Assembly (NCBI GenBank): GCA_031288885.1
Contig: JAITQP010000270.1
Coordinates: 1-11,873 of the forward strand
Source: Prevotellaceae bacterium
GTDB taxonomy: Bacteria; Bacteroidota; Bacteroidia; Bacteroidales; UBA932
Direction: 5' to 3'
DNA: 11,873 nucleotides
The notes beneath the pieces are model-generated. The model had not been told where the DNA came from. It saw only the letters and a program-made list of their open reading frames with translations, and made no database searches. Positions 2,041 through 5,400 of the stretch are shown here, one piece after another; within the stretch, counting starts at the first letter, position 1, and each line of letters starts with the position of its first letter. Position numbers and translations under genes: made by a program.

Positions 2041-2220
2041 ATGTGTGAATTCTTACTTAACCCTATGTTACCTGCCACAAGCAGCATGCGCCCGCAAAGC
2101 TGCGCGGGAGGTGTTGACATAGTAAGGGCACACACACACACACACACACACACACACACACACACACACACACACACACACACACACACACACATGATGG
2201 CGAGCCCGCAAGTTACGTAA
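2041..2220 (+). CDS. Possible 59-residue leader peptide containing a His-Thr repeat
   Basis: The open frame starts at ATG 2041 and ends with TAA at 2218-2220. The product begins MCEFLLNP, and about 30 non-repetitive residues precede 21 alternating His/Thr residues encoded by the CA tract, then MMASPQVT. It is the only one of the three forward frames that enters the tract open from an ATG: the other two have stops at 2115-2117 and 2120-2122. It lies between a candidate promoter (1989-1996) and a terminator (2261-2297), so the three could form a small transcription unit. Against it: no strong ribosome-binding site, no recognised family, and CA repeats carry no stop in any frame, so openness through the tract proves little. 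Treat it as a leader-peptide hypothesis. Confidence 0.3.
   Translation: MCEFLLNPMLPATSSMRPQSCAGGVDIVRAHTHTHTHTHTHTHTHTHTHTHMMASPQVT
2129..2194. repeat. (CA)33 dinucleotide microsatellite
   Basis: Sixty-six uninterrupted bases of alternating C and A (GT on the other strand). Pure dinucleotide tracts this long are rare in bacteria and change length by slipped-strand mispairing. Alternating purine/pyrimidine CA/TG tracts can also adopt Z-DNA under negative supercoiling. The tract lies 278 bases before the susC ATG and inside the only ATG-started frame of the leader. The copy number in one assembly may be one of several present in a population. Confidence 0.98.
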
Positions 2221-2260
2221 AATTTAGTTGTCTTGCAATAGCTTGGAGTTTTTATTTTGG

Positions 2261-2297
2261 AGTGAATGGTCAAATGCTTTGTCCATTCGCTTTTTTT
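2261..2297 (+). terminator. Intrinsic terminator or attenuator in the susC leader
   Basis: Two 14-base arms, AGTGAATGGTCAAA (2261-2274) and TTTGTCCATTCGCT (2278-2291), pair with one G-T wobble and one T-T mismatch around a TGC loop. A run of seven T follows (2291-2297). The form is that of a factor-independent terminator reading on the plus strand. It lies 40 bases after the small frame's stop and 175 bases before susC. It may end read-through from ribBA-def, end a short leader RNA, or act as a regulated attenuator. Confidence 0.75.
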
Positions 2298-2395
2298 ATG
2301 CCTGCAGGCGTAGCATTGCCTCCGCATATACGCAGCAGTGTTGCACCGTTCCCGCCACTATCTTCCCGCACAAACATCCGCATTCCTAACGCTAT

Positions 2396-2437
2396 GGCAG
2401 CTCGCAGGAGCGCTCTCCTGTTGCCTGCTATTTTTTT
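2396..2437 (+). promoter_or_regulatory. Second hairpin with T-run upstream of susC
   Basis: CAGGAG (2405-2410) pairs with CTCCTG (2415-2420) around a CGCT loop, and GGCA (2396-2399) can extend it with TGCC (2422-2425) across an internal loop. Alternatively GCAGG (2404-2408) can pair with CCTGC (2424-2428), just before seven T at 2431-2437. The competing folds followed by a T-run resemble a weak terminator/antiterminator, but the stems are short and this could be chance. Confidence 0.3.
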
Positions 2438-2472
2438 CAATCCTTTTTTTATTTACCCAAAAACATTTTATT

Positions 2473-5400
2473 ATGAACAAAAAGTTACTCGATCAAAATC
2501 GGGCAGGGCAGCTTACATCCTCCCCTGCTCCGGCGGTCAACGGTAGGCGTGGGCGCATGAGGCGTTTGCTGCTGCCGTGGCTGCTATGCGCCCTGCTACC
2601 GCTGTCGCTGGGCGCGCAAAACCTCAACGTTTCCGGAACGGTGCTCGACGGCAAGAGCGAGCCTGTGGTGGGGGCGAGCGTTGTGGTCAAAGGCTCCACC
2701 GTGGGCGTTACCACCGACGCAAGCGGCGGCTACACCATCAGCGCACCCGCCGACGCAACGCTGGTGTTCTCCTTTCTTGGCCTGACCACGCGGGAGGAGC
2801 CGGTTAACGGGCGCGGGCGCGTGGACGTTACGCTGGCCGAAGGCGACCAAGCTATTGATGAGGTGATTGTGGTGGCGTTTGGCGTCACAAAGCGGGAGGC
2901 GTTTACAGGGTCAGTAGGCGTTGTTAGCTCAAACAGCATTAAGCTGAGCCAGCAACCCAACCCCATCCAAATGCTTGCAGGGCAGGTTGCCGGCGTGCAG
3001 CTGTCGAACACTACAAACCAGTTTGGAGCTTCGCCCTCCATCCTTATTCGCGGTTTTGGCTCTATTTCGTCGGGTAACGACCCTCTTTACGTTGTTGACG
3101 GTATGCCCTACGATGGGAACCTGAACAACCTGAACCCCGCAGACATTGAGTCGATGACTGTGCTGAAGGACGCCGCCTCCAACGCGCTGTACGGGGCGCG
3201 CGGCGCAAACGGCGTGGTAATGATTACGACTAAGAAAGCGCAAAGCGGAAGCTCAACCATTACGTTCGACGCAAAAGTGGGGGTCAACTCGGTGGCGCTG
3301 AAAACGTATGACTACATCAAAGATCCGGCGGTATGGTACGAAACGGTTTACAAATCGCTCTACAACCAGCAAATATCGCTTCCGGAAAACCCCAAAACAC
3401 CGGCGGGGGCGCACGAGTATGCCAACGGGGTGGTGTCGGGGAGCACCAACAACTATTTGGTCTATACGGTACCGGAGGGTCAAGATTTCATTGGCGTTGA
3501 CGGCAAGATTAACCCCGCCGCTACGCTGGGCAGGCTGGTGTCCGTTGATGGACAGGACTACTGGATAGCGCCCGAAGACTGGCTTGAAGAGGGCACCAAA
3601 ACGGGCGTCCGGCAGGAGTATAACCTTAACATTTCGGGTGGCGATACAAAGTTCAGCTACATGGCGTCGATGGGCTACCTGAAAAACGAAGGTATCACCA
3701 CAGGGTCGTCGATGGATCGCATTAGCGCCCGCCTGAAAAGCGAGTACCAAGCCAAAAAGTGGCTGCGCACCGGCGGCAACATGAGCTACACCAATAACGT
3801 ATATAATAAGGTGAGCGAGGGCACGCTTGGCTCTACCGGAAACATCTGGAGCATGGTTGCGGCTATGGGCCCCATTTATCCGGTTTACATCCGCGACGGG
3901 AACAAAAATATCATGCGGGACGAGTACGGCGAAATTATGTACGACTTCGGAAATACCATTACGGGGCTGAACCGTCCGTCGTTTGCCGGCTCCAACCCCA
4001 TCTTCCACAACAAGTATAACAAAAATCATACTTCGGAAAACGCCTTTTCCGGCACCGGCTTTGCGGACGTTAACATTTTTCAGGACTTGAAGATTACCAT
4101 CAACGGAGGCGTTAGCAACAACGAGTACCGCTATACCTCCGTAACCGACCCCTACGCCGAGCTGTACGGCACGACCAAGAACGGAGGATACGTTTACAAG
4201 TCGCACAGCCGCCAGCTGGCGTACAACCTCCAGCAGCTTGCGAACTACACCAAGGAAGTTGGCAGCCATAGCCTGAACCTCATGGCGGGACACGAGTACT
4301 ACCGCTACACCTACGGTACGCTGTCGGGCGTGAAAACCAAAATGTTTTCGTCGGGCAACACCGAGCTTGACGGGGCTATCATCGACGGAGGGCAAGCCTC
4401 GTCGTACACCAGCGTGTACAACAACGAGGGCTACTTCTTCCGTGCGCTGTACGACTACGCCGACAAGCTGTTCTTCTCCGGCTCGTTCCGCAGGGACGCC
4501 TCCTCGCGCTTTGCCGTGGAGAACCGCTGGGGCAACTTCTGGAGCCTTGGCGGCGCATGGGTGGTGAGCAAGGAAAGCTGGTTTGAGGCGCCCCTCCTCG
4601 ACATGCTGAAGGTGAAAGCCAGCGTTGGCTCGCAAGGAAACGACAACATCGGGAGCTACCGCTACTCCGACCAGTACAACATTACGAACTCGGGCGGGGA
4701 AGTCTCCCTTGTGTTTAGCGAAAAAGGCAAAAAGAATATTACGTGGGAAACCAACACAAACTTCAACGCCGGCGTTGACTTTAGCCTCCTCCACGGCCGC
4801 CTGAGCGGAACGTTCGACTTCTTCTACCGCCTGACCAGCGACATGCTGTTTGAGTTCTACGTGGCGCCCTCCAACGGCTACGCCTCCTACTTCGACAACA
4901 TTGGAGACATGCGCAACCGTGGGGTTGAGCTGGACTTGCGGGGAGACGTCATACGGACGAAAGACCTCGTGTGGAGCATGAACCTAAACGTTACGCACGT
5001 ATCGAACAAGGTGCTTTCGCTGCCCGCCGAGCGAAAAACGCTTGAGGTGGAAGGCTACGAGGGCTACACGTGGGACGACACGCGGTTTACCGTTGCCGGA
5101 AACTACACCTCCTTTATCGGGGAGGGGCTTCCGCTGTACAACTTCTACGCCCGCAAGTACGCCGGCGTGAACGAGGAGGGCGTTTCGACGTGGTACAAAG
5201 ATATTCTTGATGACGACGGCAACGTTACGGGTCAGGAAACCACCACCACCTTCGCCGAGGGAACGCACTACCTGTGCGGCACGGCGATGCCCAAGGTGTA
5301 CGGCGGCTTTGGAACAGCGCTACAGTGGAAAGGATTTGACGTGTCGCTCAACTTCAACTACCAGCTTGGCGGGCTGGTGTACGACTACGGCTACGCCTCC

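Follow-up and report, generated by a model that had tools for sequence, protein, structure and literature searches.

CA-repeat tracts in leader ORFs as candidate phase-variable transcription attenuators across a Bacteroidales genus

The long CA tract upstream of a susC/susD pair in the 11,873-nt stretch of Bacteroidales DNA analysed here (the window) belongs to an arrangement that recurs in the genus with a common anatomy, frame geometry and orientation: a short leader ORF enters the tract, closed and open reading frames leave it around a terminator-like hairpin, and a separate gene follows on the same strand. We regard this arrangement as probably (at roughly 0.75) a phase-variable transcription attenuator. 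We infer that a promoter some 25-50 nt 5' of the leader ATG makes the transcript, that the short leader ORF would be translated into the CA tract and that slippage of the tract, by changing the repeat number, would alter the frame in which ribosomes exit it. In one or two frames, an early stop would release the ribosome and allow the terminator hairpin to form, giving low expression; in the remaining frame(s), ribosomes would cross and block the hairpin, an antitermination by which the downstream gene would be transcribed and highly expressed.

The window is contig C194 of a draft genome of 2.49 Mb (320 contigs, ~79% complete), and its CA tract is flanked by a peptide deformylase gene and the susC/susD pair (Table 1). 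Translation of the leader from ATG 2041 with 29-37 CA copies yielded exactly three states. With copy numbers of 0 mod 3 (30, 33 and 36; 33 is the sequenced number) the leader stops at TAA 2218-2220, with 1 mod 3 (31, 34 and 37) it stops at TGA 2195-2197, and with 2 mod 3 (29, 32 and 35) it continues to TAG 2544-2546 as a leader of 165-169 aa, which terminates 71 nt inside susC (start at 2473) and off the frame of susC itself. An earlier note on this DNA had proposed that only the ATG 2041 frame enters the tract open, that this frame stops at 2218-2220 as sequenced, that loss of one CA or gain of two takes it to 2544-2546 and that gain of one ends it at 2195-2197; our translations agree with all of this, and the 2041 frame is the sole such frame at the locus (L019), where the first ATG downstream of the upstream TACTTTTG box opens a closed frame. 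With the 33 copies of the assembly, the window locus has an early stop and its expression is predicted to be low.

Table 1. Features of the CA-tract locus in the window
Feature	Position	Strand	Remarks
Candidate Bacteroidetes -7 promoter box, TACATTTG	1989-1996	+	52 nt 5' of the leader ATG
Leader ORF up to the tract (MCEFLLNPMLPATSSMRPQSCAGGVDIVR...)	2041-2128	+	Sole ATG-started frame open into the tract (locus L019)
(CA)33 tract, His-Thr	2129-2194	+	Open in all frames
Post-tract segment	2195-2220	+	Contains both early stops, TGA 2195-2197 and TAA 2218-2220
Shared box AGTTACGTAA	2211-2220	+	Within the post-tract segment
Terminator-like hairpin 1 and T run	2260-2297	+	Helix 2260-2292, -15.2 kcal/mol
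Terminator-like hairpin 2 and T run	2394-2437	+	Helix 2394-2431, -18.1 kcal/mol
TAG closing the open-frame leader (CA copies = 2 mod 3)	2544-2546	+	Within susC, in a different frame
susC-type TonB-dependent transporter, presumed target	2473-5778	+	Pfam Plug, CarbopepD_reg_2
susD-type partner	5803-7545	+ (same strand as susC)	Pfam SusD-like_3, SusD_RagB

The terminator that the note had placed at 2261-2297 corresponds to hairpin 1, a helix at 2260-2292 with a T run to 2297 that single-strand folding also shows and that begins 39 nt 3' of the early stop; the second hairpin (2394-2431) had been overlooked, and both are crossed by the 2 mod 3 frame only. A strict terminator pattern scan of 1800-2620, however, reported no terminator-like site and neither hairpin, so that terminator recognition depends on the rule applied. 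Scanning the plus strand for TAnnTTTG, which we take to be the Bacteroidetes -7 promoter consensus, returned no box from 1997 to 7352, and thus no Bacteroidetes-type promoter box is seen between the terminator and susC. The TACATTTG box at 1989 is a candidate promoter without a well-spaced -33 element, on our reading of the consensus. Compared to Rfam, the window matched no family at the gathering score (the best hit, on the minus strand, scored 13.6 bits versus the 65 needed), and a known RNA family was rejected for lack of a match at threshold. A fragment of a Uma2-type putative nuclease lies at the contig end (11529-11873, minus strand). Taken by itself, the window pattern is unremarkable: after shuffling, an ORF of at least 60 nt enters from ~27% of upstream sequences, and about half of the downstream sequences (39.3/78) have an open plus a closed frame. 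Only with the CA-tract loci of the genus pooled does the pattern exceed what chance would give.

Of the 123 loci, the 112 that extend at least 400 nt upstream of the tract were used here, and in 109 of these a leader of at least 60 nt, opened by an ATG, runs into the tract on the CA strand. This compares to 26.8% (sd 4.0, maximum 40.2%) in 200 rounds of dinucleotide shuffling and to 16/69 for the antisense strand, read into the tract from its opposite end. After 14-mer redundancy reduction, and with extra loci added, leaders were found in 106/108 loci versus a shuffle mean of 27.7 and a maximum of 40. TAnnTTTG boxes have their histogram peak 25-49 nt 5' of the leader ATG, with 41 boxes for 109 leaders as a raw count uncorrected by shuffles. 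The leaders encode varied peptides, and changes between related leaders are about as frequent at each codon position (0.127, 0.122 and 0.120 over 58 pairs), so that they do not bear the usual mark of peptide conservation; 14 of the 58 stricter alignments start in different frames, and an earlier pairwise test at a loose threshold had produced spurious alignments with equal rates at all codon positions. What is kept in the leaders is the open frame, as expected if the position of the ribosome matters and the peptide does not. A peptide-sensing model was rejected because of the equal rates of change at the three codon positions. Leaders of several loci (L021, L026, L151, L155 and L164-L168) hold dispersed DNA repeats yet remain open, and within the L164-L168 group the repeats are read in different frames at different loci.

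Beyond the tract, at least one frame is open for at least 100 nt in 78/78 loci (shuffle mean 42.6, maximum 57), and an additional frame closes within 60 nt in 77/78 (shuffle mean 39.3, maximum 55), in a set that leaves out 58 loci with less than 150 nt downstream, seven loci outside the genus and duplicates. The nonredundant set behaved alike, with 75/75 loci open and 73/75 having both kinds of frame (shuffle means 40.0 and 37.1, maxima 49 and 47). On the antisense strand of the same DNA, 42/78 loci are open and 39/78 have both kinds, and on the same strand at 130-280 nt past the tract 60/86 are open and 44/86 have open plus closed frames, an open share above that of shuffles and below that of the tract-adjacent DNA. 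Terminator-like hairpins of -9 kcal/mol or better are present at 68/94 loci, whereas five shuffles gave 14-25; at these loci the longest frame runs past the hairpin in 68/68 cases, the first stop precedes it in 65/68, and 6/204 frames stop inside the hairpin versus 32.3 in shuffles (sd 4.7, minimum 21). A first terminator pass had retrieved 42/79 loci (two of these loci outside the genus) versus 5-9 in shuffles. Under a stricter hairpin definition, which 43/78 loci satisfy, the earliest stop lies before the hairpin in 43/43 and the longest frame runs past it in 43/43, 0/129 frames stop inside it, and the early stop sits at a median of 48 nt 5' of it. The post-tract design is a frame selector set around a terminator. 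The attenuation switch that the note had proposed for one locus, correctly observed there but with its genus-wide scale overlooked, thus gains strong comparative support from more than 100 loci of the same genus, with promoter activity, translation and read-through as its presumed steps.

Rather than through ribosomes that block an intrinsic hairpin, the same frames could act by translational coupling, with the leader stop near the gene start, or by Rho-dependent polarity. No hairpin of -9 kcal/mol is found at 26/94 loci, and therefore some loci need another terminator type (e.g. Rho) or another mechanism; 35 of the 78 loci with an open frame are without a strong hairpin, and 47/121 open-frame stops fall within 40 nt of the gene ATG (a raw, uncontrolled count). 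Since the frame design is seen whether or not a locus has a strong hairpin, Rho or coupling may be at work at the hairpin-less loci. As a general account, however, we consider this unlikely, given that hairpins are strongly enriched, that frames avoid stopping inside them and that the open frame of the window continues 71 nt into susC instead of stopping at the gene start.

Several short sequence elements are common to loci and species. A AGTTACGTA(G/A) box lies directly 3' of the tract at many loci in several species (2211-2220 in the window; AGTTACG within 70 nt of the tract in 32/82 genus loci) and supplies the early stop, and a GCGCGCG...TATTATA stretch is found downstream of tracts (13 and 14/82 loci).

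Downstream of the selector, an ORF of at least 100 aa begins on the CA strand within 700 nt in 66 of the 70 loci with at least 600 nt downstream, at a median of 251 nt past the tract, and it is longer than any antisense ORF in 65. A TonB plug domain (Pfam) is present in 26/66 of these targets (8/24 in the window's own genome and 18/42 in its relatives), and other targets include FGE-sulfatase-type proteins, ECF sigma factors, AraC and LacI regulators, a two-component propeller sensor, sulfatases, an aromatic amino acid lyase (L160) and outer-membrane or LRR proteins. At contingency loci whose repeats lie within the coding region, slippage disrupts or restores the gene itself. Such translational phase variation, in which the leader would form the N-terminal part of the downstream protein and the tract would toggle the fusion, is very unlikely to be what the genus uses: an uninterrupted gene frame reaches back to the tract at just 9/82 genus loci, so fusion is not the rule, and the window's susC begins off the frame of the open leader. 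Loci with a common leader in the relative BNTV01 (G060) are candidate gene fusions, as the post-tract frame stays open for 1256-1268 nt in L303, L308 and L317 and through all 874 nt of available sequence in L312. Translational fusion was thus rejected for the genus and may hold in BNTV01.

In attenuators of the trp/his type, leader translation decides on the terminator and a stalled ribosome senses the amino acid. Read in this way, the alternating His/Thr codons of the tract would stall ribosomes when either amino acid is scarce, and CAC and ACA do occur ~11 times each in the window tract, with the aromatic amino acid lyase family protein at L160 as one of the targets. We find this scarcely credible, as 26/66 targets are of the TonB-plug (SusC) type and the rest include sigma factors, FGE-type proteins, regulators and surface proteins; moreover, no His or Thr biosynthesis family is among the Pfam families listed for the 66 targets (25 of the 45 families in the case of the relatives' list), and amino-acid sensing leaves the matched open and closed post-tract frames unexplained.

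The window's own genome holds 45 boundary-delimited tracts of at least 8 copies (19 C-start and 26 A-start), or 43 loci after two double tracts are merged. Counting tracts whose upstream edge is assembled and that have 12 or more copies, two scans summed gave 5-52 in 10 of the 11 genus genomes: 45 (own genome), 48, 14, 23, 0, 52, 41, 5, 27, 9 and 45 for G000-G010, the genome with none (G004) being 1.5 Mb in size with only two weak SusC matches. Outside the genus, the C-start pattern occurs in 2/25 other genomes of the family and in 2/24 genomes of other families of the order, and a backwards control of this pattern gave matches in two further genomes, G022 and G052. These tract lengths come from draft assemblies, one per species, that are often broken at the tract; the relatives' sample (80 fetched tract regions plus the loci returned by scans) is part of the tracts listed, and the genus loci are partly paralogous.

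Such tracts might have arisen by neutral microsatellite growth in a mutation-prone genus, or as an assembly artefact, with no regulatory meaning. Many contigs of G000-G010 end inside or just past CA tracts, so that these loci are under-assembled in the drafts, and long CA runs are common in the genus and rarer in other relatives. Nevertheless, this reading is strongly disfavoured already, and we hold it to be highly improbable, since leader, frame design, terminator and gene accompany the tracts in a fixed order and orientation and the tracts recur in 10/11 genomes, whereas (GA)10 runs are nearly absent from the same 11 genomes (one locus, and three more by a backwards control). MutS_I is present in 11/11 genus genomes, and loss of mismatch repair was rejected as the cause of the tracts on that basis.

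A phase-variable transcription attenuator is not new in kind. The precedent is the Pil1 pilus of Streptococcus gallolyticus, for which the excerpted text of Danne et al. 2014 (PMC3894217) describes a repeat-frame attenuator proven by experiment, and the claim of the earlier note that this combination is undescribed is therefore wrong. In that excerpted account, GCAGA repeats lie inside a leader ORF downstream of the promoter; with 22 repeats the leader ends 39-49 bp before the terminator and expression is low, with 21 or 23 repeats its end lies 4 bp short of the hairpin or within it, giving high, translation-dependent expression, the longer out-of-frame leaders ending just before, inside or beyond the hairpin, and Pil3 of the same species behaves alike (PMC3894217). 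On the sequence features compared, the window locus resembles Pil1: its tract lies within a leader ORF (2041) upstream of the gene, as at 109/112 genus loci; one phase stops before the terminator and another crosses it, as at the 43/43 loci under the stricter hairpin definition; terminator-like hairpins lie between leader and gene, in the window (where the strict scan gives none) and at 68/94 loci; and the early stop precedes the window hairpin by 39 nt, compared to the 39-49 bp given in the Pil1 excerpt. It differs in its dinucleotide CA repeat versus the pentanucleotide GCAGA, in its Bacteroidales versus Gram-positive host, in the 5-52 tracts per genome before many gene classes versus the two pilus loci of the excerpted account, and in being known from sequence alone, whereas the Pil1 mechanism was, by that account, shown experimentally. 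Leader translation also decides terminator formation in the trp attenuator (PMC3894217, excerpted text). Attenuators of the trp/his type thus share with the proposed device the control of terminator formation by leader translation, but they sense amino acids, whereas here the repeat number would set the frame, without pathway-matched control codons. Contingency loci of Neisseria, Haemophilus and Campylobacter likewise shift frame by simple-repeat slippage and, in excerpted accounts, form genome-wide sets (phasomes); here, by contrast, a separate leader would be extended or cut while the gene stays intact. The scale appears new, in that the genus seems, from its DNA, to use the device before SusC transporters, sigma factors, regulators and enzymes. 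Within the open-licence literature searched, the S. gallolyticus work alone was found for the mechanism, and neither CA tracts in Bacteroidales nor a genus-wide use before multiple gene classes was found.

If the loci are attenuators of this kind, the predicted state of each follows from its CA count mod 3. Among 64 loci, the assembled states are 36 early-stop, 26 open and 2 in between, with a weak early-stop bias (36/64 versus 29.3 expected at random phase, sd 3.8; 19/27 versus 12.3 in the window's own genome alone). The occurrence of both states among loci is as expected of a switch that drifts. In Bacteroidales, DNA inversion is the main known route of phase variation; if true, the proposed attenuators would provide a second, repeat-driven system for the order, acting on dozens of genes and letting many glycan transporters and regulators be turned on or off independently of one another, and the Pil1 mechanism (two loci of one species in the excerpted account) would become a general regulatory strategy. 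We give about even odds to the broader proposal that the genus and its Bacteroidales relatives run a genome-wide phase-variation network in which repeat length switches the frame of separate leader ORFs, not of the genes themselves, and so randomises the transcription of at most ~50 genes or operons in each genome. On this proposal, the ECF sigma factors, AraC/LacI-type regulators and propeller-type two-component sensor among the targets would multiply the effect, and a shared cassette (leader, CA tract, AGTTACGTA box and terminator) would be copied before new genes.

A-start tracts with 11 or more copies occur in five of nine named relative genomes, at 1-10 per genome. The tract-bearing ones include BNTV01 (Bacteroidia bacterium MS502-39) and MAGs labelled Tannerella and Dysgonamonadaceae, and their isolate codes suggest, on our reading, that they are presumably from termite guts. 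By eye, a leader, a CA tract and a T-run hairpin are seen at L243, L305, L315 and L318 in named relatives outside the genus set, and since these show the same build, the device may be older than the genus. Six tracts of BNTV01 (L303, L308, L312, L316, L317 and L319) have a common leader type, MSLENSSMEYIINFDESFNNFLVKKFGDVKKIIK. L306 (G063) has a mixed-repeat form of the arrangement, in which an open leader is followed by a CA tract that passes into a long GA tract, and an identical leader peptide occurs in two genera, at L043 (G033) and L187 (G005), reflecting either transfer or a binning error.
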